DNA from: Gammaproteobacteria bacterium
GTDB lineage: Bacteria > Pseudomonadota > Gammaproteobacteria > SZUA-152
Length of the DNA stretch: 64,000 nucleotides
NCBI GenBank assembly: GCA_021647705.1
Contig: JAKIUF010000006.1
Location: 62,001 to 126,000, forward strand
Direction: 5' to 3'
The notes below the pieces were generated by a model. That model did no database searches, was not told the origin of the DNA, and saw nothing but the letters and a program-made list of their open reading frames with translations. Both the position numbers and the translations under genes were made by a program. Shown here piece by piece: positions 35,213-52,875 of this stretch; position 1 is the first letter of the stretch, and every line of letters starts with the position of its first letter.

Positions 35213-38200
35213 GGGCCTTGTTGTCTCGTGAAGTGCCCGACAGGGTGTCCGGTAAGTCCAGTTTTCGTGCCTGTTGATCGTATTCTATCTGCAATGTTGC
35301 GGATCGTTTACGTTCTGCGATATCCACAAAACAGGCTCCACCGATAAAAGGCTCCAGTGTCATCACGGATTTCAACGGTGTCGCAACAATCATTTGAAAA
35401 CCAAAATTGGTGAAAATTTTCATCGCCAGTTCGGTAAATTCGTTGTCGGCTTTGCCGAAAGCTTCATCCAGTACCACCGGCGCGTACATAGGCAGACCAC
35501 CATCGCTGCCTCCCAATTGATAACGTAATGCCGCTGCCAGACAGGTGGTGGCCAGTTTTTCCCGTTGACCACCGGATTTGCCTGCTCCGGATCGGTACAC
35601 TTCAACTTCATCTCCCTCTGCGTCATATTCGTAGCCCACAAAGTCTACATGCTGACGCACATCCAGCACTTGTTCACGCCAGCGTTGTTGTTCGCTGTCC
35701 TGTCCACTCAGCTGATTCACCAGACTGCGCATCACGGCAAACCGTTCTTCGGCCAATGCGCGGTCAGTACCCCAGGCGTTGTCTAGCACTTGCTGAATCT
35801 GTCGTTGAAAATCCGTTACGCTGTCCAGTTGCCGATCATTAACCACAATTTGCAAATGTGTTCCGGGACTGAAATCTGCGCCGGACAAACTTTCATTCAC
35901 TAATTCCATGCGGTCACGAATATCTTTGCGGGCCTGTCGCAGGTGTGTATTCAATGCAGCCAGATTTTCCGTGCTTTGCTCTTGTAACATTTCAAAAAAA
36001 CGTTGTTCGAAGGCGGGTAATCCATCGTGTTCCAGTCGCTGTAGTTTGGCGAGAAACTCCGGGGCCGAGGCCAGACTGGCATCCATATCCGCGCCATCCT
36101 GGGGCCAAGTATTTTTAAAGCTGGCAAAAACACGTTCAATGTTTTTTTCCAGGGTATTGGTTTCTTCCTGCAAAACCCGTCTTTCTCCATTGAGATTGCG
36201 CTCCACCCGGGTTCGCTGTTGTTCCAGGTTTTTCAACGTCAAGGTTTGTTCCAATGCTGAGAACCGGGCTTCCAGCCCTTCGCTTTGGAAAGGTGTTAAT
36301 GTCAGTGTTTTTATTAATACCTGTAGTTCGTTCAGTTCTTCCTGATGTTGATGAAGTTGTTCCTTGATATTGATCCGTTTGGCCTTGAGAGTGCTCCAGG
36401 CATTGTCTGCCGAGATTATTTTCTGTTTTTGTTTTTCAATTTTCTCACCCAGTTTTTGTAATGTTGAATTGCCTTGGCGCAGTTCTTTCAGTGCTTTTTC
36501 CAGTTCGTGGATGCGCACCAGCAGTGGCGCAACATCCAGTTCCTGCCAGCGCAGGTTGGCCAGTGTGTGACAGGCTTTAAAATGATCGCTGTGTTGTGTT
36601 TCCTCATTTTTAAGCTGCGTTATCTGTTGGTCGAATTGACTGATTTCATCGGCAAGATGCTGAGCGCGGTTTTGGAATAAACCCAGTTTTTCCCGGTTAT
36701 CAAAACCCAACACCCAGTGACGACGGTCATCGATCGCACGACGGTCATCTTTTTCATGGCGGGATTTGCCATGTTTGATTTGCCCTTCACGGGTAATGGC
36801 CCGTTCACTGTCGCGAAAAGCATGCAGGCTTTCGACACAGGCATAATTGAAACGGGCTTTGAGTTCCGCATCCAGCCAGGCACGGCACGCCGTTTCTTTC
36901 AGTTGCAGTTTGTAAATCAGGGAATTGTTGTGGATGGTTGCAGAACGTGTGTGACTTTTTGCAGTGAGGCGATGATAAACAAGACGTTGCTTCAGCCGGG
37001 TATCATTCACATAAGTGGTAACGGCGGCGTAGTGACGTTCATCCACCAGTAACGATAATGCAAAACCATGCAGCACACGTTCAATGGCTCCGCTCCAGAG
37101 CACGTCCTCCTCACGCACTTCAATCAATTCTCCAACAAAAGGCAGGTCTTCATCCAGCAGCCCCAGTGCATCGGTCAGTCGTACACGTAACTCCAGCATG
37201 TAAGCAGGAATATTGGAGGGTTGACGCTGCATGGCGTCGATTTCTTTCCGTACTTCAACAAATTCGGTTTCGGTGTCTTTTTTCTGTTGCAGAAGCTGGA
37301 ATTGACGATCACGCAGTGCTTCGCTTTTTTTCTGCCAGCTGTCAACATAGTCTCGTGCGTGTCCTGCCAGTTCGGCATAGGCCTGTGGTGAATCAGGCAA
37401 GACCCAGCCCAGTTGTTCACAAGCATGTTGTGCCTGAATGCGTTTCGCCAGTCGTTCATCACGCTGTTGTTCACTCTGGCGTTTTTCCTGTTCGATTTGT
37501 TCGATGCGCCCGCCGCCCTGCTCCCGGCGATCCCTTTCCAGATTCGCCAGCTGCGTCTTGAGGTTTTCCAGATTTTCGCCTTGACGTTGTTCCTGTCCTT
37601 CAAGGCTCTGGTCTTCTGTGCGTAATCGGGAGAGTTCCTCCTCCAGCAATACGGCCTTGCGTTCATCCCGGTAAGCATCCACACCGACAATCAATTCATC
37701 GAGCTGATTGCTTTCCTGTAATACTTCCGTTAATCGCTGATGTTTTTCGCGCGCGGGTTGCAGGGTTTCGACTTGCTCGCGCGCAATCACCACAGATTGA
37801 TGAGCAGCATCCAGTTCATCAAATTCCTCGACCAGACGTTCGGCAACCGCAAAGGTCTCCGGTTTGTCTAACATGAATTCACGCAGAAAGTGATTCAAGT
37901 CACCCAGGTTTTTTGCGGACTGGGTTTTGTGCAACAGCTTCAGGGCCATTTCGCTGTCAATGCCCAGCAGGCGACGAAAGCGTTCACTGTAGGGTCTGAA
38001 TTTATCGTTATGGTAAACGTCGTCCAGTTGCTGTTTCAGTTTGCGGATATCGAGTTTGAAATCTGCCAGTTCCTGCATAACATCAAAAGGCCGTTCCGCC
38101 AGCATGTAATGGCGTTTGACATCGGCGCTGCGGGTTGTGGTACCACGTAACCAGTACAACTGAATCAGGCTCACCACCTGCCCTGCCTGATTGGCATACT

Positions 38201-38570
38201 CTACCATCAGTGCCGACCAGGTGCTGTCGGCCCGCAGGAACTGGGTGGCAATCTGGCCGGAATCCACATCCTTCTGGTCCGCCCAGGCACCGCGAATATA
38301 GGAGACCAGGTTACGGTCATAACGGCCACGGTCTCCCTCCCTCGCGGCGGCATTGAAACCTAACCAGGGTGGTGGCACCAGCAAGGCGGAGAGTGCATCC
38401 AGCAATGTGGACTTGCCCGACCCTGAACGTCCGACAATCAGAAAACCGTCTGCGGCAACGGGGATATCATGCAACCCGGAAAAAGTGCCCCAGTTAAAAA
38501 CCTGCAACCGGCGCATGCGATATTGCTCGGTCAACAACATATCCAGCGTAAGTTCTTCGACATTATTCAT
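35190..38570 (-). CDS. jetC: Wadjet SMC-like ATPase JetC
   Basis: JetC is the SMC-family motor of Wadjet. Walker A VGRSGSGKSTLLDAL lies near residue 45-60, a very long coiled coil fills the middle (roughly 250-1000), and the C-terminal head has the ABC signature GKSGGQREKLA followed by Walker B VVLDEAFGKAD and an IVATP switch. The frame opens at 38597, but the ATG at 38570 (MNNVEELTLD) is preferred because it overlaps the jetB stop by 8 bp. Length, about 1126 residues, is normal for type I JetC. Confidence 0.95.
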   Translation of the reverse strand: MNNVEELTLDMLLTEQYRMRRLQVFNWGTFSGLHDIPVAADGFLIVGRSGSGKSTLLDALSALLVPPPWLGFNAAAREGDRGRYDRNLVSYIRGAWADQKDVDSGQIATQFLRADSTWSALMVEYANQAGQVVSLIQLYWLRGTTTRSADVKRHYMLAERPFDVMQELADFKLDIRKLKQQLDDVYHNDKFRPYSERFRRLLGIDSEMALKLLHKTQSAKNLGDLNHFLREFMLDKPETFAVAERLVEEFDELDAAHQSVVIAREQVETLQPAREKHQRLTEVLQESNQLDELIVGVDAYRDERKAVLLEEELSRLRTEDQSLEGQEQRQGENLENLKTQLANLERDRREQGGGRIEQIEQEKRQSEQQRDERLAKRIQAQHACEQLGWVLPDSPQAYAELAGHARDYVDSWQKKSEALRDRQFQLLQQKKDTETEFVEVRKEIDAMQRQPSNIPAYMLELRVRLTDALGLLDEDLPFVGELIEVREEDVLWSGAIERVLHGFALSLLVDERHYAAVTTYVNDTRLKQRLVYHRLTAKSHTRSATIHNNSLIYKLQLKETACRAWLDAELKARFNYACVESLHAFRDSERAITREGQIKHGKSRHEKDDRRAIDDRRHWVLGFDNREKLGLFQNRAQHLADEISQFDQQITQLKNEETQHSDHFKACHTLANLRWQELDVAPLLVRIHELEKALKELRQGNSTLQKLGEKIEKQKQKIISADNAWSTLKAKRINIKEQLHQHQEELNELQVLIKTLTLTPFQSEGLEARFSALEQTLTLKNLEQQRTRVERNLNGERRVLQEETNTLEKNIERVFASFKNTWPQDGADMDASLASAPEFLAKLQRLEHDGLPAFEQRFFEMLQEQSTENLAALNTHLRQARKDIRDRMELVNESLSGADFSPGTHLQIVVNDRQLDSVTDFQRQIQQVLDNAWGTDRALAEERFAVMRSLVNQLSGQDSEQQRWREQVLDVRQHVDFVGYEYDAEGDEVEVYRSGAGKSGGQREKLATTCLAAALRYQLGGSDGGLPMYAPVVLDEAFGKADNEFTELAMKIFTNFGFQMIVATPLKSVMTLEPFIGGACFVDIAERKRSATLQIEYDQQARKLDLPDTLSGTSRDNKAHGENLPA

Positions 38571-39255
38571 TGTCGTGGCCTTCGTCCAATGGAACATCCT
38601 CTGCTAATAGAGACTGGTATTGCCGGAGCAGCGAACCAATTTGCTCGGCACTGAATAACAGCTTCAGTGTCGGTGCCACTTCATAACGCTCATCGCTGTC
38701 TCTTATCCGGCTGAGAATGCTGTTCTTTTTGGCTTTCTCAATGGCGGCATTAACCCGTTTGTCGAACCCGGCCCGGTCCGTGTTGATGCTTTGCTCGTAA
38801 AGCCCCAGTTGCTCACGCATATCCGTCGCAGACACTACTGCACGTAATCCTTGTGTTTCTGCTTCGGTCAATTGCTGACGGAGGTAAAGCATTAACACCG
38901 AATCAATAAAAGTCAGATTGGTACGACGCAATAGTGTGGGTGTTTCCAGATCTCCCGTGTCTGCCTGACGGGTAAAAGCCACTTGCATATCACGATCCAA
39001 CACCAGCTCCAGAAACAACTCGGCGAGGCGTGAACGAATAAGTGCTTCATGACGCGACAGTACCGGCCACAGTTTTGTATGTCGCTTCGCATCCAGCGAA
39101 GGGCCGGATAATAGTTGTACCAGCACACGTCGTGCATCCATGGGCAGCTGACCCAAATCCCCCGGAAACAATTCCGTGGAGACGTGCTCTTTTTCGTCTG
39201 CCTCATCTGGCAGCCGTTCAAGTAAGTCAGGTTCTTTTTCAGAATGTTCCATCAT
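38563..39255 (-). CDS. jetB: Wadjet subunit JetB (kleisin-associated, DUF4194)
   Basis: JetB is the MukE-like accessory subunit of Wadjet. The 230-residue acidic protein has FPGDLGQLPMDARRVLVQLL near the N-terminus (the key residues are in LPxDARRVLVQLL) and the winged-helix-rich region ILSRIRDSDERYEVAPTL near the end. It sits in the expected place before jetC. Upstream, however, 383 bp of repeats separate it from jetA, whereas these genes usually touch. It may therefore need its own promoter. Confidence 0.9.
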   Translation of the reverse strand: MMEHSEKEPDLLERLPDEADEKEHVSTELFPGDLGQLPMDARRVLVQLLSGPSLDAKRHTKLWPVLSRHEALIRSRLAELFLELVLDRDMQVAFTRQADTGDLETPTLLRRTNLTFIDSVLMLYLRQQLTEAETQGLRAVVSATDMREQLGLYEQSINTDRAGFDKRVNAAIEKAKKNSILSRIRDSDERYEVAPTLKLLFSAEQIGSLLRQYQSLLAEDVPLDEGHDNE

Positions 39256-39358
39256 GCGGTTCTGTTTATAACGTAGAATATGCGCTCGTTAACTTTACAC
39301 TTTAATGTGAATCAAGTGCTGAAAACACGCTATTTTTTAAAAAAATCACTGGGTATTT

Positions 39359-39434
39359 AACACAGAGATCGCAGAGGCACAGAGTTTTTAATGTTTTTCT
39401 CTGCGACCTCTGCGTCTCTGTGACCTCTGCGTTT
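39359..39434. repeat. CAGAG-type palindromic repeat between jetB and jetA
   Basis: AACACAGAGATCGCAGAGGC, centre GTTTTTAATGTTTTTC, and right arm CTCTGCGACC, CTGTGACC and TCTGCGTTT form a long near-perfect hairpin. It belongs to the same family as 30444-30542. Confidence 0.85.
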
Positions 39435-39514
39435 ATAACACGGCACTTGTCAGCACCACTACAACATAACCTGCCAATACACTGGAACGCTCATCCAAGA
39501 GTTTAAATCTCTGG

Positions 39515-39539
39515 ATTCCGGCTAAAAACATGCCGGAAT
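39515..39539. repeat. Short REP-like hairpin
   Basis: ATTCCGGC and GCCGGAAT around TAAAAACAT form a perfect 8-bp stem, with the flanking CTGG and GACG typical of REP-like sequences in gammaproteobacteria. It is one of three unrelated palindromes in the jetA-jetB gap. Confidence 0.75.
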
Positions 39540-39563
39540 GACGGTATTTTCAGATCGTAGACC

Positions 39564-39637
39564 GTAGGGTGGGCACGTCGTTTGTGCCCACGCGGTGATT
39601 CCACATCCGCGTGGGCAAAAAAACATGCCCACCCTAC
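39564..39637. repeat. 74-bp palindromic element with GTAGGGTGGGCA termini
   Basis: Twelve-base perfect terminal inverted repeats (GTAGGGTGGGCA) enclose a second, inner palindrome (CCCACGCGG and CCGCGTGGG). The element ends one base before the jetA stop codon (39639). Its termini resemble those of the larger element at 28560-28702. Confidence 0.85.
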
Positions 39638-39638
39638 T

Positions 39639-41120
39639 TTATATGCCATCATGACTGATATTAAATGACTCTTTGACAAAATAAATACGGGGAATACGGG
39701 CACTGCGTGGCGTACCATCCGCGCCTTCCCAATCAACGGTCTCGGTACTGTCCCCAGTACTATCCACCCGCACACCATGGCGCACGCCGATGGCAAGATA
39801 ACCCACCACACTGCCCAGACCCTGTTCCGCCGGATAATGCTCCATCACCTCGGCAACCGAGATCTGGCTCCGTTTTTCCAACAACTGCGTAATATGTCCC
39901 TGCAAACGGCAAAAATCAATTTCCGACTGGGCCACCAGTTCACTTACTGCCTCCAGCGATATCTCTGCGGTTTCCGCCAAAGGAATACCCCCTTCAATCA
40001 TATCCAGACTGGGGTCATGCAAAACCTGTCGTGACAATGAATCGATTTTGCTGCTGGTCAGATAAAGGGTATGGCCAATATTTTCATTCGCCCGGATTTG
40101 ATCCTTAGCCGCCAAAGCGGCACGCTGCGCCGTTTTGATCAACCGGCTCAAACGACGCTGCTGCTGATAGTCACGGCTTTGCACAAACTGTTTCAAGCCA
40201 CGCGCAAAGTTTTGCAACACTTCATGCACCTCCGCCCCCTGCTCCAGTAACAACCGGGTGAGCTGTAACAAAAAGCGTTTTTCCTGCCGTTCCAGCTGAT
40301 GCGCGAAATCCCGCGAGAGCACTTGCTCCAGTGCCACATCAAAGCCTGCACTTTGTTCCGGGTCCGTCAGCAAACGCCAAAAAGCCTTGAACGTACGCCC
40401 GGCATCACTATCGGCAATCACATCAACACCGGCGAACAATGCCTCCAGTACCTCACCACGACCACCGTCACTCTCCATCACACTTTCGCGTAATTGCCGG
40501 TTCAGTTTTTGAAACTCGTCACGCACCTGACGGAAATCACTGGCCAGCTCATCCGCCAGCGCAATAATCTCACGGGAACGTTCCAGCGCACGTTCGTCAT
40601 CAAGGGTTTCCAGCTTGCCGGCATTAATGGCATCGATTTGTGCGTCAATACGCTGTCGTTCCTTCATCAGCGTCTGAATGCGGGTTTCCGGATTGCTCTC
40701 CGTCTGTTCCGCCAGCAAAACCAGTTGTTGAATCACCATGGCCAAACGGGTTTCAGTGGCAACGGTATGTTTTTCTGTCAGGCCATCGATAAAACGAATG
40801 GCCTGCACAGCGGCGGCACTCAGCTCGTACTCCTCTTCACTGGCGGTTTGCTGAAACGTGCGTTCCAAAAACCCTGCGGCCAGCCACTGCGTCAGATAGA
40901 CCTGCGCCGTCTGCGGCAAATCGCAGCCCCGGGTACGCAATATGTCCAGATCACGGCCAATGCGATCATGCAGGATGGAACTGGCCACCCGCCGCTCCTT
41001 GTCCAGCAAATGTGTCTGCAATAACGCCAAAATTGCAGGCGCATTATCCGCCGCCAGCAGACGCCAGATTGACTCCTTACGCAAACGTGAATTAATCGCG
41101 ACACGCTGGGCGGCCTTCAT
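39639..41120 (-). CDS. jetA: Wadjet kleisin subunit JetA (DUF3375)
   Basis: JetA is the MukF-like kleisin of the Wadjet complex. The 493-residue protein starts with a DUF3375 domain (LRKESIWRLLAADNAPAILALL), has a long helical middle and ends with a winged-helix part (VAEVMEHYPAEQGLGSVVGYL). It is the first gene of the operon. The stop codon abuts the 74-bp palindromic element, so the last few residues (SFNISHDGI) may have been affected by its arrival. Confidence 0.92.
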   Translation of the reverse strand: MKAAQRVAINSRLRKESIWRLLAADNAPAILALLQTHLLDKERRVASSILHDRIGRDLDILRTRGCDLPQTAQVYLTQWLAAGFLERTFQQTASEEEYELSAAAVQAIRFIDGLTEKHTVATETRLAMVIQQLVLLAEQTESNPETRIQTLMKERQRIDAQIDAINAGKLETLDDERALERSREIIALADELASDFRQVRDEFQKLNRQLRESVMESDGGRGEVLEALFAGVDVIADSDAGRTFKAFWRLLTDPEQSAGFDVALEQVLSRDFAHQLERQEKRFLLQLTRLLLEQGAEVHEVLQNFARGLKQFVQSRDYQQQRRLSRLIKTAQRAALAAKDQIRANENIGHTLYLTSSKIDSLSRQVLHDPSLDMIEGGIPLAETAEISLEAVSELVAQSEIDFCRLQGHITQLLEKRSQISVAEVMEHYPAEQGLGSVVGYLAIGVRHGVRVDSTGDSTETVDWEGADGTPRSARIPRIYFVKESFNISHDGI

Positions 41121-41259: not shown

Positions 41260-41460
41260 TTACCTCGGGGCAACCCTTCGAAATGACTGTCTGATGTAAT
41301 TAGGCATGCCTTGCTCTGTCAACGCAACGGCTTCCAATGCCTGAACTTCGCCCCTTTCCCATTTTGCCCATTTGTAGAACTCGAACTGGAGAGACGTTGG
41401 AACCACCACCGTCTCAACGTCATCCAGCCAGGGCTGAAATTGTTCAGCCAGACAACCCAT
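41260..41460 (-). pseudogene. Truncated PIN-domain toxin (VapC) remnant
   Basis: The 66 residues include DVETVVVPTSLQFEFYKWAK and ALEAVALTEQG, which match the second and third helices of VapC-type PIN ribonucleases. The first strand with the catalytic Asp (normally VDSSGWLEY) is absent, apparently through a deletion that joins an ATG directly to the helix before DVET, and the C-terminal half with the other catalytic acids is missing. It starts inside the stop codon of vapB (TAATG). It cannot be an active nuclease. Confidence 0.75.
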
Positions 41461-41669
41461 TACACGCGATCCTTGCGATCACGATATCCCGCAGGATCAG
41501 CCTCATTGAACAGACCGCGTGCTTTTGTCTGTGAACGTCTCGGAATAAGCTCGATGATATCGCCCTTGGTAATGAGGGTAAACTTCTGCCCCGCTTGTAA
41601 ACCGAGCTTCTCACGGATAGCTTTGGGAATAGCCAATTGGTACTTACTGGACAGGGTTGCTGAGACCAT
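41460..41669 (-). CDS. vapB: AbrB-type antitoxin (VapB/MazE-like)
   Basis: Sixty-nine residues from the ATG at 41669, chosen because AAGGTG lies 6-11 bases upstream. MVSATLSSKYQLAIPKAIRE is the AbrB swapped-hairpin DNA-binding motif, followed by LGLQAGQKFTL. The C-terminal part, which would wrap the toxin, is basic. Its toxin partner is destroyed, so it survives alone and may still repress its own promoter, which faces the divergent STAND gene 75 bp away. Confidence 0.88.
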   Translation of the reverse strand: MVSATLSSKYQLAIPKAIREKLGLQAGQKFTLITKGDIIELIPRRSQTKARGLFNEADPAGYRDRKDRV

Positions 41670-41743
41670 ATTTTCACCTTTCAAATAAGACTGTGTTCTT
41701 CGCAACCATAGCATGCTGAAAAACAAGCGTTATACAATGGGCT

Positions 41744-44700
41744 ATGGATTTACCAGACGACAACCCAAGCACCATTCAACGCAGCTTTAGAGAACTCTCG
41801 GACAAAGAAGCCTGTGACGTTGAACAAATCTCCATCCTGGCCCACATGGGGTGGTCGGGGATATTCGGATGGGACAAACTGCTAAAGTCCCAGCGTATTT
41901 TGATCGTTTCTGAAGCCGGTACCGGTAAAACCTACGAATGCCGAGCCAAACAAGCCGCGCTATCAAAAGCAGGCAAAGCCGCATTCTATTTCGATCTGGC
42001 ACAGCTTTCCAACAACAACCTTCGCGACCTCCTGTCTCTCGAAGAGGAAAAGCGCTTCGATGCCTGGCTCGCAGCACAATCTGATATCGCCACAATATTT
42101 CTCGATTCCATCGATGAGTTGAAGCTGACTCTAGGGTCGTTTGAAGGAGCGCTAAAGCGCCTCAACAAGGCGATGGCGGGGCAACTCGGCCGTGCCAGAA
42201 TCGTGATTACAACTCGACCCATTCCCATCGATGATCGTCTGATCCGGCAACACTTGCCGATTCCCGGAAAGAGTGAACCGGTTGCCAGCGGTGAAGAAAC
42301 CTTCGCCAACATCGCAATGAATAAACAGCACAATAACGAAAAGGACAAGCAAGCGGGTGATAATCCTCCGGCTTGGCTGAATGTCACACTAATGCCTCTC
42401 TCGGATGATCAGATCCGGGAAATGGCAGGCCTCCAGGGAGTGACTGATGCAGACGCGCTGCTCGAAGATATCCGCAAACGCAATGCGGAAGATTTTGTCA
42501 GGCGACCACAAGACCTGGTCGAATTATGCTCCGATTGGCAAGACCATCGTCGCATCCGCACCCATCGCGAGCAAATTGCGCATAATATCGCAACCAAGCT
42601 AAAACCGCGCACGGATCGAAGCGAAAAGGTGCAACTCACGAAGGATAAAACGCTTGAAGGTGCTAGCCGCCTTGCACTCGCTATGCTGCTCACTCGCAAA
42701 CTCACCCTTCGGCACAGCGCTGAAGCCGATAAGAGCGGCGAACCGAAAACCGCTTTGAATCCGGCAGCAATCTTGCCCGATTGGTCTGCCAATGAGCATG
42801 AAACCCTTTTGGAGAGAGCGCTATTTGGCTTTGCCAGTTATGGCCGTGTACGGTTCCACCATCGATCAGTCGTCGAATACCTTGCGGCCCATCGCCTGGA
42901 AAGCATGCTGAGCTGCGACATGTCAATGAAGGCGATCAAACGTTTGCTGTTCGCCGAAACCCCGCAGGGTATTAAGGTCATAAAGCCGTCAATGCGACCT
43001 GTTGCAGCTTGGCTTGCTCTCTCCCAGCCAAGTATATTTAGTGAAATACGTGATCGCGAGCCCAACGTCTTGCTCAACTATGCGGACCCGGAATCACTAA
43101 CGCCGCAACAGCGTATTGATACCTTACGCACCTACGCCAGGCAATACGGCCAAGGCAACTGGTGCGGTTTGCATGTACCACGTGTGCAAGTTTACCGCTT
43201 CGCCTCGAATGAACTTGCCTCTGAAGTTTTGCACCTGTGGGAATCCGGGATTGAAAACCCGGAAGTAAGAACTCTGCTTTTAGAGCTTATTGCAGCAGTT
43301 CCCATGCGTGAGGGTGCCAACATCGCCTATTCGGTCGTCATGCAAGATGATGCTGATAGTGCCGAGCGCGTTGAAGCACTCGGTGCGTTGATCAAACTCA
43401 ACGACTCTCGACTTGAGGCGGTAACCCTCTCCATGGAGACCGATCCAGATATCTGGCCTGATAAGCCCCTTAAGAACTCGATACTGGAGCTCTTTCCGGC
43501 ACATATTCCAGTCGAGCGTTTGTGCAAAATTCTGTCACGCATCACAGAGTCCCCGCACAGCACTGATAACCTGAACTGGCTTTGGCCGCACTTGATTGCC
43601 AAAGCCAATATGGCATCTGGCTATCTTGAGGCGTTGCGTGCCGGATTGACTGACCTCGTAGCCGAGGGCATCGAATGGCATAAAGAAAAATGGCCTCATA
43701 GTCTTGTAACCCCAAGGCAATATCTCGTTGCCCCGCTCGCCGCCGTCTGTCTTCGTCAGTTAGCTGAAGGCAACACATCGCCTGCAGTTGTCAACTCAAG
43801 TGTTATAGCCCTCCGGTCCACACATGACGAGTACAGTCACAACGAGTCCGTCACTGATTTGCGAAAAGCGCTTGCGCAGTCACCAGCATCGCTGAGGAAG
43901 GCGATATTCTGGGCTGATGACGCTTTCGTTCAGAGTTATCACTCTCAGAAAAACCCGTGGCGCCGCCTCTACGAGGTCAATCATTACGGTGCGATCAGCT
44001 TGAGTGCTTGTCAAGACAAAAACTGGATTCTGGCGAACCTCTCTGACTCAAAGTGGCCTCTCCCTGAACGCGCCATGATGCTTGAAGCAGCGATGCATAA
44101 TGTTTGGGACGGCCAAGGCGATAAACTCGACTATGTTCTGACTCTGAAAGACCGGGTTGTCGATTGCCCTGCACTTACGGCACGTATCAACGACTATATC
44201 AAGCCCGTCCCTGCCAACAACGAATTTGCCGGTATGAAAGCAAAACATCAAAAGCGCCAGAAACAGGCTAAACACCGCCAGACCAAAGATCATGAGAGCT
44301 GGATGTTATTCTGGCGAGAAGTGGCCAATAATCCGCAAACGGCTTTCAGTCCCGGGCAAGCAGAAAATACCGTATGGAACTTGTGGCAAGCAATGAGCCG
44401 CTCTGGTGAAGAAAGCCGCTCATCAGGATGGAATCGACATTTCATCGAACAATATTTCAACAAGGAGATTGCTGACCAGTTACGCTTGACAATGATAAAT
44501 ATTTGGCGAAACGACCGGCCTACGCTACGTAGCGAGCGTCCAGAGAACGAGAGAGGAACATTTCAAGTCAAATGGCAGTTAGGTCTCGCAGCCATAGCGG
44601 CAGAGGCAGAAGACAAGAATTGGGCGCGCAATCTATCCTCTGAGGAAGCAAAATTGGCGCTCCGTTGCGCGCCAATTGAACTAAATGGCTTTCCTTCATG

Positions 44701-46144
44701 GCTTGAGAGTCTTGCTAGTGCTCATCCTGCTGCTATTAAAGCAGTATTAGGCTCGGAATTGATAACTGAATTAAACGAGATCGCAACAACCCAGTACCAC
44801 CTCGTTGTCTTACAAAACATTAGTCATGCTGCCCCGTTAGTAGCAGCCTTGTTTGTTCCACACCTCCGTACCTGGTTCGATGAAAACACTCAACGCATTA
44901 GAGAGGATGAAGATAGCGCCCGGGTAACTGATCGTCTCCGGCAAGTTATCGACATCTTGTTGAGGCATGGTGACATGCATGTGTGTGAGCATGTTTGCAC
45001 AGTTGCAGCACAGCAACTCGCTGACGGTCATGATCAGGACTTCGCGTACATATGGCTTTCTACCTTGATGCAACTAAATCCCACCGCAGGAACCGGGCAG
45101 CTCGAACAAATGCTGAGTGAAGTTAAACCTGGAGGTCGGGGGCTAGGGGTTAACTGGATTAGCCTTCTGTTCGGTGACCGTCATAGCAAGACATTGATCA
45201 ACCTCCGTTCGCCCGAATTTACTCCTGCCTTGCTACTACGTCTCGTGCGGCTCGCTTATCGCCATGTACAACCCCTGGAAGACATTAGACATGAGAGCGC
45301 CTACACTCCCGGTCTCCGCGATCATGCCCAAAATGGCCGTGATGCTTTGTTGAATGCCCTACTGAACACTAAGGGTCCGGAGGGCTGGGAGGCAAAACTT
45401 GAATTGGCTAACGATCCACTATTGGCGCATTTTCGTGATCGGGCCTTGTTGATTGCCCGTGAGAAGGCTGCGGAGGAATTAGATGGAATAGCCCTCTCCG
45501 AGTCCGAGGTAATAGCACTTAACCACAACAGGGAAGTGCCTCCCACCACTCGTGATGAATTGTTCACGCTCATGGTAGATCGTCTTGACGATTTCAAAGA
45601 TCTGTTACTCCGCGATGATTCACCACGCGCTGCATGGGCTGGCATTTCAGATGAGAAAGTGATGCGCCGTGAAATCGCGCGTGAGCTGCGCAATACCGCC
45701 AACCACGCTTACACTGTTGATCAGGAGAGCGTGACAGCTGACGAGAAGGAAACCGACATCAGATTGCGCTCCTCCACTTCAGATCATCAAGCCGTGATCG
45801 AACTTAAGTTAGGCGACAAACGTACAGGCCGTGACCTGCGCGACACGATTAAAGAGCAGTTGGTAACCAAATACATGGCACCGGATGCGTGCCGCTCTGG
45901 ATGCCTGCTGATCACCATCGCCAAGAATCGAACCTGGCAGCATCCAGATTCCAAAAAATTCCTTGATGTTGCCGGGCTGGAATCAATGCTTCAAAAAGAA
46001 GCATCAAAAATCGTTACCGAGATGGGACTAACCCTGCGGCTTACTGCACAAGTGCTTGATCTACGGCCACGTCTTCCGACCGAAAAGGAGTCTGTAACGA
46101 CACAAAAACGTAAATCCGTTTCGAACCCACAACAGAACAATTAG
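41744..46144 (+). CDS. STAND/NACHT-like NTPase with C-terminal PD-(D/E)XK-like nuclease domain
   Basis: A 1466-residue protein. The N-terminal P-loop module has Walker A VSEAGTGKTY (Lys62), Walker B TIFLDSIDEL (Asp121, with Asp124 and Glu125) and ARIVITTRP (Arg158, sensor-like), followed by a helical segment with FVRRPQDLVEL, as in STAND/NACHT NTPases. Residues about 400-1290 are all-helical with a HEAT/TPR-like look, suited to ligand sensing. Near the C-terminus TDIRL (Asp1338), AVIELK (Glu1353, Lys1355) and EQLVTKYM (Gln1372) give a PD-(D/E)XK nuclease core. No signal or membrane segment exists. It lies between Wadjet, an eroded vapBC and a decayed zeta module. Defence is inferred from this architecture and setting. 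TATACAAT lies just before the ATG, so the message may have a very short leader. The specific family is not recognised. Confidence 0.85.
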   Translation: MDLPDDNPSTIQRSFRELSDKEACDVEQISILAHMGWSGIFGWDKLLKSQRILIVSEAGTGKTYECRAKQAALSKAGKAAFYFDLAQLSNNNLRDLLSLEEEKRFDAWLAAQSDIATIFLDSIDELKLTLGSFEGALKRLNKAMAGQLGRARIVITTRPIPIDDRLIRQHLPIPGKSEPVASGEETFANIAMNKQHNNEKDKQAGDNPPAWLNVTLMPLSDDQIREMAGLQGVTDADALLEDIRKRNAEDFVRRPQDLVELCSDWQDHRRIRTHREQIAHNIATKLKPRTDRSEKVQLTKDKTLEGASRLALAMLLTRKLTLRHSAEADKSGEPKTALNPAAILPDWSANEHETLLERALFGFASYGRVRFHHRSVVEYLAAHRLESMLSCDMSMKAIKRLLFAETPQGIKVIKPSMRPVAAWLALSQPSIFSEIRDREPNVLLNYADPESLTPQQRIDTLRTYARQYGQGNWCGLHVPRVQVYRFASNELASEVLHLWESGIENPEVRTLLLELIAAVPMREGANIAYSVVMQDDADSAERVEALGALIKLNDSRLEAVTLSMETDPDIWPDKPLKNSILELFPAHIPVERLCKILSRITESPHSTDNLNWLWPHLIAKANMASGYLEALRAGLTDLVAEGIEWHKEKWPHSLVTPRQYLVAPLAAVCLRQLAEGNTSPAVVNSSVIALRSTHDEYSHNESVTDLRKALAQSPASLRKAIFWADDAFVQSYHSQKNPWRRLYEVNHYGAISLSACQDKNWILANLSDSKWPLPERAMMLEAAMHNVWDGQGDKLDYVLTLKDRVVDCPALTARINDYIKPVPANNEFAGMKAKHQKRQKQAKHRQTKDHESWMLFWREVANNPQTAFSPGQAENTVWNLWQAMSRSGEESRSSGWNRHFIEQYFNKEIADQLRLTMINIWRNDRPTLRSERPENERGTFQVKWQLGLAAIAAEAEDKNWARNLSSEEAKLALRCAPIELNGFPSWLESLASAHPAAIKAVLGSELITELNEIATTQYHLVVLQNISHAAPLVAALFVPHLRTWFDENTQRIREDEDSARVTDRLRQVIDILLRHGDMHVCEHVCTVAAQQLADGHDQDFAYIWLSTLMQLNPTAGTGQLEQMLSEVKPGGRGLGVNWISLLFGDRHSKTLINLRSPEFTPALLLRLVRLAYRHVQPLEDIRHESAYTPGLRDHAQNGRDALLNALLNTKGPEGWEAKLELANDPLLAHFRDRALLIAREKAAEELDGIALSESEVIALNHNREVPPTTRDELFTLMVDRLDDFKDLLLRDDSPRAAWAGISDEKVMRREIARELRNTANHAYTVDQESVTADEKETDIRLRSSTSDHQAVIELKLGDKRTGRDLRDTIKEQLVTKYMAPDACRSGCLLITIAKNRTWQHPDSKKFLDVAGLESMLQKEASKIVTEMGLTLRLTAQVLDLRPRLPTEKESVTTQKRKSVSNPQQNN

Positions 46145-46359: not shown

Positions 46360-46947
46360 TCACCAGTAGTTAACTAAAATCACCTTTGCCCAATCGGGTA
46401 ACGGTTGTTGTTGTATTTGCAGTTCATCATGATCAATGAATGCAATAGAAGTGAAAGGTTCAGCATGTGACGAATTATCATAAATCTGTACAACATCAAC
46501 TAATGCCAATACATCATTCACATACCGTATGGCTCCTGGCATCTGTGAAATAATTTTCTCACTTGGCACCGTATGCCCACCTTCTGCTACTCGTTGAGAA
46601 GCGCGCGCCTAGTTTAATTGATCATTTTGCAAATGAATATAAACAAAAATAATCTCATAGCCTGCTGACTTTGCAGCTGCTAAAAAATCAATTTTCGAAG
46701 GATGAGAAAAAACGGTCTCAAAACAAAAGCTAGTGCCTGTACGCAGCAAATCCAGACACAGTTTTCCAGCTAGTTTGGCCACTTTATAACTCACCACCTT
46801 CGGTTGTTCAGCGTTCAGTTCTTTTGCCAGAATATCGGCATTAACAAAAGGTAAGCCGGTTGACGCTAAAAACAGCCGATAAAAAGTGGACTTGCCTGCA
46901 CCATTCCCCCCCCCAGCCAATAACCAAAGTTGCTTATCGGCACTCAT
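46360..46947 (-). pseudogene. Zeta-toxin-like P-loop kinase interrupted by an in-frame amber codon
   Basis: The first part has Walker A AGGGNGAGKSTFY, then NADILAKELNAEQP and FCFETVFSHPSKIDFL, all as in zeta/PezT-type kinases. A TAG at 46609-46611 stops translation after LQNDQLN. The same frame continues without any shift through ARASQRVAEGGHTVPSEKI to a natural end (AKVILVNYW), giving about 195 residues in total. In intact relatives the stop position is usually a Leu, so a single TTG to TAG change would explain it. It overlaps the antitoxin-like fragment by ATGA. The product is probably inactive unless the amber codon is read through. Confidence 0.82.
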
Positions 46948-47231: not shown

Positions 47232-48815
47232 TTATCGCGGAATCACTTGTAATATCTGACCGGTATTTCTTAATAACTCACTCGGACGACAAGAAAGCAA
47301 CCCGGAGGCTACCCCTATCCCTGAAGAAGTTGCGCCTGACACGCCATGCGCCACGGTACTTGCGCCGCAGAGAAAAAGGTTTTTGATTTCTGATCGATTT
47401 TTAAAACTAAAAGGACCGAATTGACGCCAGGTTTTTTCTGTTCCATAGCAGCTTCCATTAGTAGATTTCACATAATGATCATTCGTTAACGGCGTACTCA
47501 ATTCACAATAAACCAGATGGTCAGAGATGCCTGGAATAATATGCTCAATGGTTTTAAGCATCGATGCTGTCAGTTTTCGCTTGAGAGCATGATAATCATC
47601 AGGCCGATTATTATAAGTGGTGTGTTGCCATTGTCTAAAAACTTCATACGAAATAAAACTGACGGCCTCAATAGTGTGATGACCATTTCTGAAACTATTC
47701 GGGTCTTTCATGCTGCTTATGCCGACAAACACACCGGGGCATTCATCAGCATCAACTACGCTAGGGCTTTGGGCGCGTTGATAATACACTTCAGGATCAT
47801 GAAAAGGTGTATACCAATAATTTCCGGAATCAAAATTCATACTGGCAAGATCAAGGTCGGTCGCAATATAAAGCACCAGCGCAGCCGTTGTATAAGTAAA
47901 CTGGTCCAGTTGTTTCAGGAGTTTTTTGCTAAGAAACTCCCGACCTATCAATTGCTCATAAGTTATTTTTGGAGAAGCATTGGAAATAATTTTTTTAGCT
48001 CTGAGTTCCTCACCATTACCCAGTCGGACACCGATAGCATATCGTCCTTTTTTATTTTTTTCGGTAATAATTTTTTCCACTGGGGTAGATAATAGTATTT
48101 CTCCCCTGTTCTTTCTTAACGCACGCACAAAGGCTTTGGGAATAGCACGTCCACCACCTTCAGGATAATAACCGCCCTCAAGATAGTGCCCCGTTACCGC
48201 AGCATGCAATGCAAATGGTGTTCTTGATGGTGGCAGACCATGGTCACCACACTGAACAGAGAGAAAGGTTTTTAACAAAGGGTCAGAAATCCTATCATCC
48301 AGTGTTTTCTTTAAAGAGAACAAACCATACCGTCCCATTTCTCGCGTTCTGAAAGGAACGGTTAAAAGCTCCAGGAGGCCTCTGGTTTCAGGAACAATAG
48401 ATAACTGGCCACAAATTTTATCCACCAGAGAAAAATAATTTTCAATCCCTTTGGCATCAGCAGGAAAACGCTGTTTGAAGCGTTCAATAGTGGCCTGTTT
48501 ACCACTGGGGATATCCATAAACTCCTGTCCAACCTGAATATGTTCATAACCATCAGGATTCATTTCAAAAAAAACAAGGTCATCAGCAACACCAAGCCCT
48601 TCGTAAATTTCGCGCATTGATCCACCATCACCAAGTTGACCAACATAATGAACACCGGGACTAAAGCGGTAACCCTTTTTTCTAAAGCTGTGACAAAGAC
48701 CGCCCGGTACATTGTGCTGTTCAATAACGATGACACTTTCGCCTGCCTGAGCTAGGGGGAGAGCCGCAGCTAAACCACCTGCACCTGAACCAATAACAAT
48801 GACATCCGCGTCCAA
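47232..48815 (-). CDS. CrtI/retinol-saturase-like FAD-dependent oxidoreductase
   Basis: A 527-residue flavoprotein of the phytoene desaturase/carotenoid isomerase superfamily. The N-terminal dinucleotide-binding fold is DVIVIGSGAGGLAAALPLA with the ribose-binding Glu in IEQHNVPGGLCHSF, and the C-terminal FAD part is LFLCGASTVAHGVSGATSSG. The middle resembles carotenoid isomerases and retinol saturases rather than a classical CrtI. It is on the same strand as the minus arm of the pigment cluster, 352 bp downstream of ApeP, so it could act on the polyene; no carotenoid genes are near. Confidence 0.85.
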   Translation of the reverse strand: MDADVIVIGSGAGGLAAALPLAQAGESVIVIEQHNVPGGLCHSFRKKGYRFSPGVHYVGQLGDGGSMREIYEGLGVADDLVFFEMNPDGYEHIQVGQEFMDIPSGKQATIERFKQRFPADAKGIENYFSLVDKICGQLSIVPETRGLLELLTVPFRTREMGRYGLFSLKKTLDDRISDPLLKTFLSVQCGDHGLPPSRTPFALHAAVTGHYLEGGYYPEGGGRAIPKAFVRALRKNRGEILLSTPVEKIITEKNKKGRYAIGVRLGNGEELRAKKIISNASPKITYEQLIGREFLSKKLLKQLDQFTYTTAALVLYIATDLDLASMNFDSGNYWYTPFHDPEVYYQRAQSPSVVDADECPGVFVGISSMKDPNSFRNGHHTIEAVSFISYEVFRQWQHTTYNNRPDDYHALKRKLTASMLKTIEHIIPGISDHLVYCELSTPLTNDHYVKSTNGSCYGTEKTWRQFGPFSFKNRSEIKNLFLCGASTVAHGVSGATSSGIGVASGLLSCRPSELLRNTGQILQVIPR

Positions 48816-49167
48816 TTTTTACCCCTGGTATGATTTGTCGGAAAAACACAATAGCGTGTGCATCCAACATCGTTGATAACCCATAACGTACATTTTTAAA
48901 TTTTATGTTTTCATTTTTGCATAGTACAGTAACGTTTTTTCATTAATTAACTTATTTAGTTTTTATCATTATTAAAACAAGCATGCGATGAAAGAGTTTA
49001 ACCAAAAACATATAAATTACACCACCAGACCGGTGAAAAATGAAAAAATTCAGCAACTAACCCAATGTTTAACGCTATTTTTCTAGTAGTAATTCTTACC
49101 GAATATTTGTATGAATGTTTTTGAACGCACATACAAAATTGAGTTAACAGGAAGCAAATTAAATAAC
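48816..49167. other. AT-rich intergenic region
   Basis: About 350 bp rich in A and T, with only a 32-codon frame (48988-49086) of no recognisable family. It separates the CrtI-like gene from the pigment cluster and could hold its promoter (reading leftward). No clear hairpin was seen. Confidence 0.5.
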
Positions 49168-49599
49168 TCAAGGCGGCTGAATTAATGCAACCCGCCCCGT
49201 CATCAGTTCATCTCCTCTGGCACATGCCCGGATATTATATATTGCCCCGTTGCTGTCATTAAAAATACATTCGGCCTGAATGTGTAACTCGGGCACACTG
49301 ATGTCGATAAACCGGGAAAACACATGCAATTTCTTTATCGCCCCAAGATAGGCAGGGCGGGCTGCACCGAGGCCACTTTGTTGTAAGGCTGCGTGAACGG
49401 CTGCCGCCTGCGCCCCATATTCCACCAACACCACCGTATCCATCACTCCATCTTCAATCAGCGGATTATCCATTCGGCGATGACTGGCGGTAACGGCGTT
49501 CAGACGGTGTTCATCCCAGTCTGTTATCTGATCGAGCAAACACATGGCTTCGCCATGAGGGATAAGTTGAACGATTTTATGGCGCGGGATTGCAGTCAT
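49168..49599 (-). CDS. apeP: 3-hydroxyacyl-ACP dehydratase, ApeP-like
   Basis: A single-hotdog protein of 143 residues, last gene of the minus arm. LIPHGEAMCLLDQI carries the catalytic-type His, and VVLVEYGAQAAAVHAAL forms the hotdog helix with its acidic residue. In the characterised aryl-polyene system ApeP works together with ApeI to dehydrate the 3-hydroxyacyl intermediates of the growing polyene. It starts 65 bp after the CLF gene. Confidence 0.82.
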   Translation of the reverse strand: MTAIPRHKIVQLIPHGEAMCLLDQITDWDEHRLNAVTASHRRMDNPLIEDGVMDTVVLVEYGAQAAAVHAALQQSGLGAARPAYLGAIKKLHVFSRFIDISVPELHIQAECIFNDSNGAIYNIRACARGDELMTGRVALIQPP

Positions 49600-49663
49600 G
49601 GAATAGTGGTAATGACAATAAAAAAATCAGTTGGCTGAAAATTATTTTATCTATTTTTGCTGC

Positions 49664-50461
49664 TTAATAGGGTGTTAGATTGACCATCAACATTCCATCA
49701 CTAGGCAAAGGAAGGTGTAGCTGGCAGTCTTTTTTCCGGGCCAGCGCCTCCAGCAATGGCAAACTACGTGCTGCAGGATTGCCAAGGCGTACGGCGTCCA
49801 AAGCGATATTTTCCATTGGTGTTTCATTTTTTTCTTCCGCACCGAGACCGACAGTCAAACAAGCGAGGCTGGTATCGTCAGGTGCTGCGGTTAACACCAG
49901 AGCCACAGCAAATGGATCCTGGATAAAGCACTTGGCAAACAAAGGCGGTGGAGGCGGCGTGTCATAAACTGCCAATAAGGCTGATACTCCGTCCAATGCC
50001 ACCTGAGTGGCGGCTTCCAGTAGTCCTGCGCTGAAGCTACCGTCATAACCAGCCAGACTGGTAGAAGGTGCGCGAGAGCCAGTGGCGATACTCCAGTAGC
50101 CGGCAGCAGCATTGTGGACCGAGTTGTGAAACTGGGTGGGTGATACGGCCCGCTCGGGCTGCCGCAGCATCCGGCATATCTGATCGACAATGGGAGTATC
50201 TCCTCCGGAGGAGGCAAAAATACCCGCCAAAGTGCTGGGGTCAAGATTGCTGCTGTCGATGGCATCTTCACAGGCACGAAAAGCCAACCGCACCACTTCG
50301 GTGGCCCGACGACGTTCATTCGGCGGCAACAGTTTTGGCTTGTAACGATCAAGCGGTCGGGAAAGGCAGGGCTGTTCACCCCTCAATACCTGGCGTCCTT
50401 TAACCCAGTTTTCCAGACCCGGTGCTGCCAAGCCAACGGCATTCACATAAACTTTGATCAT
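49664..50461 (-). CDS. apeC: Ketosynthase-like chain-length factor, ApeC-like
   Basis: About 265 residues with a ketoacyl-synthase N-terminal fold (VYVNAVGLAAPGLENW, ASSGGDTP, QFHNSVHNAAAGYWSIAT) but no active-site Cys, so it is a partner rather than a catalyst. In aryl-polyene systems ApeC pairs with the ketosynthase ApeO. The ATG at 50461 overlaps the ApeO stop as ATGA, which fits tight translational coupling of a heterodimer. Confidence 0.85.
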   Translation of the reverse strand: MIKVYVNAVGLAAPGLENWVKGRQVLRGEQPCLSRPLDRYKPKLLPPNERRRATEVVRLAFRACEDAIDSSNLDPSTLAGIFASSGGDTPIVDQICRMLRQPERAVSPTQFHNSVHNAAAGYWSIATGSRAPSTSLAGYDGSFSAGLLEAATQVALDGVSALLAVYDTPPPPPLFAKCFIQDPFAVALVLTAAPDDTSLACLTVGLGAEEKNETPMENIALDAVRLGNPAARSLPLLEALARKKDCQLHLPLPSDGMLMVNLTPY

Positions 50462-51645
50462 GCTGAACACCCCACCACCAGACTACAATTGCTGCCACCG
50501 AAACCGAAAGAATTGTTCAGCACAGCCCGCAGTGGTTGATATCTGTTCTCCAGCAATACCTCAATTTTCAGATTCGGATCCAGTGTCTCGCTATTTAATG
50601 TCCGGGGCATAAAACCATGCTCCATGCATAACAAGGCCAGCGATGTTTCAACAATGCCAGCAGCTCCCAAAGTATGCCCTGTCCAACCCTTGGTGGAACT
50701 ACACGGGGTTTTGCGGCCAAACAAGCTGGCCACGGCTCTGGATTCGGCAATGTCGTTGGCCTGGGTGCCAGTGCCATGAAGGTTGATATAATCAATGTCC
50801 CTGACTGCCAGCCCGGCGCTGGCCAAAGCGGCTTTCATTGCCGCCAATGCACCTTCACCCTGCGGGTGTGGCGACGACATATGGTAAGCATCGCTACTTT
50901 CTCCATACCCCAGCAAGGCGACTCCCCCACGATTCTCTCCAGGCTGGAGCAAAGCAAACCCGCCCGCCTCACCAATAGAGATTCCGCTACGGGCCATATC
51001 AAAGGGGCGGCATTTTTCTGTAGCCACAAGCTGTAAGGCATTGAAGCCATACAAAGTGGTCAAACAGAGGGAGTCAACACCACCCACCACGGCGGCATCA
51101 CAAAGCCCGCTCTGTATGGCTCGACTGGCAGAGGCAAACACTTTGGCACTGGAGGAACAGGCAGTAGAAACTGTGACGCTGAACCCTTCGATACCCAGGT
51201 AATGACGCACAAAATCAGTGACAGCATAGGTATTGTGAGTAGTGGATTCATGATACCACTGCGGCAACGGCTCTTTTTCCGGGTCGATACTGAGATAGGC
51301 CTGCTCGGTTTGATGGATACCCGAAGTACTGGTGCCCATAAAAAGACCGATGCGTTTGGCACCGTAGCGACTCGTGGCATCACGCACGACATCGATAAAC
51401 CCGTCCTGTTCCAACGCCAGTTGAGCTAGGCGGTTGTTGCGACAGTCGTAGCTCGCCCATTGACCTTCCAGACGGAAATCATCAAGGGACGCTACTTTGC
51501 CCACCCAGGCATCTAGGTCATCAATTTGAAAAAAATCACAAGCTGTCAGCCCGGAATGCCCCTCCCGTAACGGTTGCCAATGAGCGTCACGACCGGCACC
51601 CAGTGCCGAGGTCAGCGTATAATCAGTGATCTGTAGTGGTTTCAT
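50458..51645 (-). CDS. apeO: Beta-ketoacyl-ACP synthase, ApeO-like
   Basis: A FabB/FabF-type condensing enzyme of about 395 residues. The nucleophile is in VSTACSSSAKVF, the two His in NLHGTGTQAND and KGWTGHTLGAAG, and the end is FGFGGSNCSLV. The frame opens at 51717, but the ATG at 51645 (MKPLQITDYTL) is chosen because the fold starts there; it still overlaps the end of the acyltransferase gene by 23 bp. It should elongate the aryl starter with malonyl-ACP. Confidence 0.92.
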   Translation of the reverse strand: MKPLQITDYTLTSALGAGRDAHWQPLREGHSGLTACDFFQIDDLDAWVGKVASLDDFRLEGQWASYDCRNNRLAQLALEQDGFIDVVRDATSRYGAKRIGLFMGTSTSGIHQTEQAYLSIDPEKEPLPQWYHESTTHNTYAVTDFVRHYLGIEGFSVTVSTACSSSAKVFASASRAIQSGLCDAAVVGGVDSLCLTTLYGFNALQLVATEKCRPFDMARSGISIGEAGGFALLQPGENRGGVALLGYGESSDAYHMSSPHPQGEGALAAMKAALASAGLAVRDIDYINLHGTGTQANDIAESRAVASLFGRKTPCSSTKGWTGHTLGAAGIVETSLALLCMEHGFMPRTLNSETLDPNLKIEVLLENRYQPLRAVLNNSFGFGGSNCSLVVGCSA

Positions 51646-52540
51646 CGAGCCAAAAATCATAAAAATTGAACCAGTTATAGGGAGCCTCACCAATGTGATG
51701 CTCCAAGCGGCGGACATATTCTCCCATAGCCCGAGAAATTTCTGTGTCGCGTTGGTGACGGGGAGCAGAAAACTGTTCCGTCAACAGTTCAAAATTGAGC
51801 TGGTAACGATTCCCCCCTTGATAGAGTCCGAAACAAAGGATGACCGGCGCTTTGAGAATCAACCCCAGCAACCATGGCCCAACAGGGAAATTTGCTTGCC
51901 CTCCAAGAAACTCACAGCGGATCATCCGCTCATCATTCCCGGCCCTGTCAGCCATAATGCCAATCATCTCACCCTTTTTGATTGCCTGATCCAGAGTCAA
52001 GGCCAACGCCGGTGCAGATTGCGCAGGATCGATAATCGCTGCAGCAAGTTCCGGGTCCAAAGCATCAATCAGTTCGGCGGCAAGCGGGCTGTGCTGGCGA
52101 TCAATCAATACACGAATCGGTAAACGCTGTTCTTTTGTCGCTAAAACCCGCATCACATCAAAACTGCCAAGGTGAGAAACCAGGAGAATACAACCCTGCT
52201 TCTGCGTCACATAACGCTGGAATAATTCGGCACCATTGACCTGAATTTGGTATTTATCATGTTGCCCGGAGAGAAAAAACAAACGATCCACAGAAACAAC
52301 CGCAAAGGTATAAAAGTGTTTCCACAAATCCAGCCATCCTGGTTTGCGCCCCAGTGCCCGGGTCAAATACTGGCGTGAAGCCCGGCGAGCCGTGGCGGCG
52401 GTCAACAAGAAATAAAATGCTACTGGATAAAGTAACAGCATCATAAATCGTCGGCCAAGATGCAGAGCCGCCCATACCAGCAATGTCAACATAGTGCGGT
52501 TGCTTCGTTCTTTCTGTTCATGCCACCGGGGGGCCGTCAT
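51623..52540 (-). CDS. LpxL-like lysophospholipid acyltransferase
   Basis: An acyltransferase of the LpxL/HtrB (LPLAT) superfamily with an N-terminal membrane anchor (LLYPVAFYFLLTA) and the conserved LVSHLGSFDVMRVLA, in which His-Xaa3-Asp-like spacing is modified (HLGSFD), and MADRAGNDER. In aryl-polyene clusters it is thought to move the polyene onto a lipid. The ATG at 52540 overlaps the upstream stop as ATGA. In many clusters this domain is fused to a glycosyltransferase; here the two are separate genes, the other being at 58764. Confidence 0.85.
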   Translation of the reverse strand: MTAPRWHEQKERSNRTMLTLLVWAALHLGRRFMMLLLYPVAFYFLLTAATARRASRQYLTRALGRKPGWLDLWKHFYTFAVVSVDRLFFLSGQHDKYQIQVNGAELFQRYVTQKQGCILLVSHLGSFDVMRVLATKEQRLPIRVLIDRQHSPLAAELIDALDPELAAAIIDPAQSAPALALTLDQAIKKGEMIGIMADRAGNDERMIRCEFLGGQANFPVGPWLLGLILKAPVILCFGLYQGGNRYQLNFELLTEQFSAPRHQRDTEISRAMGEYVRRLEHHIGEAPYNWFNFYDFWLDETTTDH

Positions 52541-52869
52541 GGTTGCTGCTCCCGAGGTGCATGTCCAGCCAGTTCCAGTACACCTTTGCAAACGAGGTTA
52601 GGGGGACAATGACAAGCAACATCCAGACGCTGCAACGCCGGATCACTTTTCAATTCCAGGCGACACTGATCACCAGGGTGGAGGCTTTTGAGAAATTTCA
52701 TCGATTTGATAGTGATGATGGCGTGAGTGCAATACTGACGGTGAACCCGGGCAAAAATCCATTGCATTAACAACGCTCCGGGAACAATGGGATCTCCGGG
52801 GAAATGAGCGGGGAAACACGGGTGCTGTTGTGGCACGGTAAAATAGAGTGTGATCACATCGGGCTTCAT
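52537..52869 (-). CDS. FabZ/ApeI-type hotdog dehydratase
   Basis: A 110-residue single-hotdog protein with CFPAHFPGDPIVPGALLMQW, the dehydratase active-site loop, and FLKSLHPGDQ. It follows the AMP-ligase gene, the place of apeI in known clusters, so it is a candidate for the ApeI subunit that pairs with ApeP. A second protein of the same kind is at 58371, and which of the two is the true ApeI cannot be settled here. Confidence 0.8.
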   Translation of the reverse strand: MKPDVITLYFTVPQQHPCFPAHFPGDPIVPGALLMQWIFARVHRQYCTHAIITIKSMKFLKSLHPGDQCRLELKSDPALQRLDVACHCPPNLVCKGVLELAGHAPREQQP

Positions 52870-52875
52870 TTCAGT

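Follow-up and report, generated by a model that had tools for sequence, protein, structure and literature searches.

The 64,000 nucleotide stretch of DNA analyzed here (the window) contains a long open reading frame next to a Wadjet operon. A sequence-only reading proposed that its product is a new defense protein with a STAND-like P-loop NTPase at the N-terminal end and, unlike Avs, a nuclease effector at the C-terminal end. The locus thus raises two questions: whether the protein is new, and whether its effector is indeed at the far end of the chain. Features of the locus are listed in Table 1.

Table 1. Positions of the hyoA-type gene, its protein motifs and domains, and associated genes (window coordinates except for the last line)
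Feature	Position	Strand	Basis and remarks
hyoA-type gene, single-gene NACHT/STAND antiphage protein, 1466 aa	41744–46144	+	intact ORF; NCBIfam NF058534
Walker A, residues 57–63, EAGTGKT (Lys62)	41912–41932	+	G61 and K62 invariant in 71 homologs
Walker B/NACHT acidic motif, residues 119–126, FLDSIDEL	42098–42121	+	D121, D124, E125 invariant
Sensor arginine, Arg158	42215–42217	+	invariant in 71 homologs
Winged-helix motif, residues 371–382, FHHRSVVEYLAA	42854–42889	+	NACHT-like; F371 invariant, H372 and E378 in 70 of 71
Helical-repeat region, residues ~391–1290, candidate sensor	42914–45613	+	helices in model; lowest conservation
Predicted PD-(D/E)XK nuclease domain, residues 1304–1440	45653–46063	+	seven invariant residues; model
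Complete type I Wadjet operon, separate system	34052–41120	-	PADLOC JetA1/B1/C1; Pfam DUF3322, JetD_C
jetA	39639–41120	-	Wadjet operon
jetB	38563–39255	-	Wadjet operon
jetC	35190–38597	-	Wadjet operon
jetD	34052–35212	-	Wadjet operon
Divergent MazE/AbrB-fold antitoxin gene	41460–41714	-	Pfam PF04014, 35.4 bits, cut-off 24.7
Truncated, decayed zeta-toxin-like gene, downstream of hyoA-type gene	46609–46947	-	Pfam PF06414, 29.8 bits, profile positions 19–130 of 199
EruA, second NACHT antiphage protein, same genome	L105:6095–10135 (= G000:C78)	-	NF058535, 1434 bits

Family identity

The translated sequence matches the NCBIfam model NF058534 at 1557.5 bits (cut-off 1200), and the match covers model positions 1–1430 of 1430. 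NF058534 is an equivalog model in NCBIfam release 20.0 (June 2026) and is named "NACHT domain-containing antiphage protein HyoA". Judged by this curated cut-off, the protein is a HyoA and a good further sequence of a named antiphage family. The next-best NCBIfam model is that of EruA (NF058535).

The protein is not recognized by Pfam, which gives only AAA, below cut-off, and PADLOC-DB 2023 has no useful match to it, so it could look new. The proposal of a new defense protein fails, however, because NCBI already curates the family as antiphage. Neither the whole protein nor the profiles of its two domains had a significant sequence match in the PDB. A search of a limited literature collection found no antiphage publication on HyoA or EruA; the "EruA" matched there is an unrelated E. 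coli regulator. DefensePredictor mentions NACHT and PD-(D/E)XK systems, without HyoA in the main text (PMC13092281).

Domain organization

The N-terminal part displays the sequence features of NACHT/STAND proteins, i.e. a Walker A with GKT, a Walker B with D-S-I-D-E, a sensor arginine and a winged helix. The Walker B motif is read as FLDSIDEL in the family and as IFLDSIDEL in the window protein. Conservation was assessed in 71 full-length homologs that are 25–74% identical. In this alignment the winged-helix motif, F-H-H-R-S-x-x-E-Y-x-A-A, is nearly invariant, and K62, D121, D124, E125 and R158 are found in 71 of 71 sequences, as are E1304, E1328, D1338, E1353, K1355, Q1372 and Y1377 at the C-terminal end. 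The key residues picked out by the sequence-only reading (K62, D121, R158, D1338, E1353, K1355 and Q1372) are all among them.

The AlphaFold model of residues 1–700 has a mean pLDDT of 89.4. A Foldseek search with it gives eight matches at E ≤ 0.001, all of which are NLRP2, NLRC4/NAIP or Avs4, with E-values of 1e-8 to 5e-6 against NLRP2, Avs4 and NLRC4. The top rows of the VIA comparison are NLRC4, NLRP3 and NOD2, at Z 10–11 over residues 1–510. Motifs and predicted fold together identify this as a NACHT module, in agreement with the proposed STAND-like NTPase. The NTPase starts at about residue 43; the protein has no N-terminal effector, as the stretch ahead of the NTPase is too short for an effector domain.

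The winged helix is followed by the proposed long helical-repeat region. Helices are seen in the model from about residue 391 to residue 700, and to that extent the proposal stands. The region continues to about residue 1290; the AlphaFold models covered residues 1–700 and 1180–1466. The repeats are the most variable part of the protein, and family conservation is lowest at residues 550–850 and 1000–1150. Low conservation here is as would be expected of a sensor in an arms race.

The model of residues 1180–1466 has a mean pLDDT of 90.1 and displays an αβββαβ core. This consists of helix A (1304–1317), strand 1 (1323–1327), strand 2 (1339–1343, beside D1338), strand 3 (1349–1356, with E1353 and K1355), helix B (1362–1377, with Q1372) and strand 4 (1383–1392). 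E1304, E1328, D1338, E1353, K1355 and Q1372 are at the canonical PD-(D/E)XK places. The VIA top rows are nearly all PD-(D/E)XK nucleases: Can2 (Z 7.8), McrC (7.4), OkrAI (7.4), PaqCI (7.0), BamHI (6.8) and FokI (6.7), with Cdn1, Nt.BspD6I, Shedu, HamA, EcoRV, NucC and LmuA further down a list that spans Z 5.4–7.8. Foldseek gives McrC only, weakly (E = 7e-3). Because every VIA Z is below 8 and this is the best Foldseek E-value, the assignment needs joint evidence; the topology, the arrangement of residues and the fact that nearly all top matches are of one fold, taken together, make a restriction-endonuclease-like fold well supported. A C-terminal region without such a fold had been named beforehand as evidence against the proposed nuclease, and the predicted fold is of the restriction type. 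The predicted effector is thus C-terminal, as had been claimed.

The domain might instead mainly bind or sense nucleic acid, e.g. phage DNA ends, or cut RNA, and so not be a DNA-cutting effector. Among the closest VIA matches are Can2/Card1-type nucleases, whose substrates include RNA in addition to DNA, and other STAND proteins have their sensor in the place of this domain. However, the complete E/D/ExK/Q set is invariant in the 71 sequences. The domain is also among the most conserved parts of the family, and between close homologs it evolves slowest (dN 0.087, compared to 0.21 for residues 801–1170), which is unlike an arms-race sensor. A role as sensor or RNA nuclease is thus improbable, though it is the strongest of the alternatives to a DNA-cutting effector.

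Distribution and genomic neighborhood

An alignment-based scan of GTDB genomes detected 314 relatives, whereas a single-sequence scan of genome contigs found none. The 80 relatives kept are from Proteobacteria, Verrucomicrobia, Desulfobacterota, Myxococcota, Planctomycetes and Campylobacterota, and the effector-last layout is constant across HyoA relatives. The HyoA cut-off is passed in six of 369 sampled genomes of the window's class, the window's own genome included. Homologs are present in 64 plasmid records by tblastn, twenty of them nearly full length, and three viral contigs carry a relative; E. coli genomes searched at the DNA level gave no match. The patchy spread within the class is typical of defense genes and fits a mobile one.

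The hyoA-type gene was described as adjoining Wadjet, and a complete type I jetABCD is indeed beside it. It was also described as divergent from an antitoxin gene, which proves to be of the MazE/AbrB-fold type. The two decayed toxin-antitoxin modules proposed for the same region are borne out in part: the antitoxin gene is found, as is a zeta-toxin gene in truncated form, but the presumed toxin remnant at 41260–41460 has no Pfam match. This short minus-strand open reading frame is behind the MazE-type antitoxin gene and by eye resembles a PIN/VapC toxin fragment. The zeta-toxin-like gene is cut off after its P-loop half, and an antitoxin partner was not identified. Further along, at 47232–54231 on the minus strand, genes resembling a CrtI/carotenoid-isomerase-like oxidoreductase, a FabZ-like dehydratase and ketosynthases are clustered, perhaps representing an aryl-polyene-type pathway.

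A PADLOC scan of 293 genes close to homologs (threshold 1e-10) shows matches to IetAS, DRT reverse transcriptases, DISARM, BREX, Dpd, Septu, PARIS and MADS. In two scans of these genes 173 and 384 models matched, against 80 for 150 control genes; these are counts of models, not of genes, and the control is not clean, as its genes are partly from the same defense-rich genome. Plasmid homologs are near genes for TIR, SIR2 plus ATPase, HEPN and DUF262 proteins. Homologs mainly in non-defense contexts would have spoken against the proposal, and those analyzed are near defense genes. The defense role, which the sequence-only reading had inferred, is well supported as far as it is testable, by the passing of the HyoA antiphage model and by these neighborhoods.

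Among 388 neighbors of 74 homologs searched for a partner gene, no gene family was seen at three or more of the 74 loci. Because of this the HyoA protein most likely acts alone.

Many STAND proteins are regulators. The locus could accordingly encode a chromosomal STAND regulator, or an anti-plasmid factor given its position beside the anti-plasmid system Wadjet and the homologs on plasmids, in either case with no role against phages. This is very unlikely. The family is named antiphage by NCBI curators, its sparse occurrence in the class and its defense neighbors fit a mobile defense gene, and the output domain is a predicted nuclease rather than a DNA-binding regulator domain.

Integrity of the coding sequence

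The proposed single protein of 1466 residues corresponds to an uninterrupted frame, from ATG to stop, at precisely the positions expected. The opposite strand of the same segment is full of stops and has no comparable frame, and a search of the window for Rfam RNAs and tRNAs gave no match. A close homolog is present in Pseudomonas izuensis (L026), and the nearest one, from a Lamellibrachia endosymbiont (L022), is 74% identical. Compared with the latter, most substitutions are synonymous (dS ~1.2, dN ~0.16), i.e. synonymous changes outweigh non-synonymous ones about sevenfold. With its full-length frame and this ratio, the product is a maintained protein.

Seven of 83 HyoA homologs are split by frameshifts or stops (L077, L082, L085, L088, L094, L097 and L099, the last from Enterobacter sp. 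EA-1). These represent either decay or assembly errors. That the window gene is itself a decayed, non-functional copy, as the truncated toxin-antitoxin genes next door and the split homologs might suggest, is scarcely credible for a full-length frame that keeps all invariant residues and has a dN well below dS.

Proposed mode of action

The hyoA-type gene probably encodes a one-gene, NLR-like sensor and executioner that would oligomerize and cut DNA on infection. Directly supported are the family membership, the NACHT module, the nuclease fold, the invariant predicted catalytic residues, and the absence of an N-terminal effector and of a conserved partner; from this anatomy we infer a trigger, oligomerization and activity on DNA, with or without cell death. 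The order of events is proposed because of homology to NLRs and to bNACHT25/32. In the resting state the protein is probably monomeric, autoinhibited and bound to ADP. A cue derived from or caused by the phage would then be read, probably by the long variable helical-repeat region, and ATP binding at the NACHT module would lead to oligomerization. The oligomer would pair the C-terminal PD-(D/E)XK domains, and the paired nucleases may cut phage DNA, host DNA or both, by which infection would be stopped.

For the window, the value of this assignment is modest: it annotates the defense island, gives the protein a family name and lists candidate key residues precisely. As the family itself is already known, the remaining interest is in the reversed layout.

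Comparison with known systems

The window protein differs from HyoA by no detected feature; only its source bacterium is different. The same genome also carries EruA, on another contig (1434 bits, cut-off 1000), with a HigA-type antitoxin-like gene about 1 kb from it. EruA also displays an N-terminal NACHT module, and its C-terminal nuclease is homologous to that of HyoA (hhalign E = 1e-6, probability 91%), with the pattern E...D...ExK...QL...Y kept in both. The window protein however has only about 23% identity to EruA and scores 132.5 bits against the EruA cut-off of 1000, and membership in that family is rejected. Because the C-terminal ends are homologous, the effector-last order is common to two families.

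According to a 2025 paper, every STAND NTPase carries its effector at the N-terminal end and its sensor at the C-terminal end (PMC12169576). An earlier survey notes enzymatic domains also at the C-terminal end of STAND proteins (PMC8195603), and therefore the reversed order in general has precedent. HyoA and EruA may possibly form a distinct, reversed-polarity class of bacterial NLR-like proteins with the NTPase first, sensor repeats next and nuclease last, although this is offered tentatively. If so, activation of the effector must pass through the sensor and not out of the N-terminal end as in known NLR-like assemblies. Proteins of this type, which break the effector-first order across many phyla, would permit a test of how an effector is switched behind a sensor.

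bNACHT25 and bNACHT32 also combine a NACHT NTPase and a PD-(D/E)XK nuclease within one protein. In these, DNA is degraded on phage sensing and the active site is needed, but the chain begins with the nuclease and has the sensor at its C-terminal end (PMC12169576). With its nuclease last, the window protein is not of the bNACHT25 type. Avs proteins share the STAND NTPase and long helical repeats, and one of them, Avs4, ranks with the best matches by fold; the Avs (AVAST) effector is however N-terminal, and membership is rejected on domain order, no effector domain being found ahead of the STAND module. Animal NLRs (NLRC4, NLRP3 and NOD2) share the NACHT module fold over residues 1–510. Unlike these, the window protein displays no detected Death-fold or leucine-rich-repeat domain and has a nuclease of its own.
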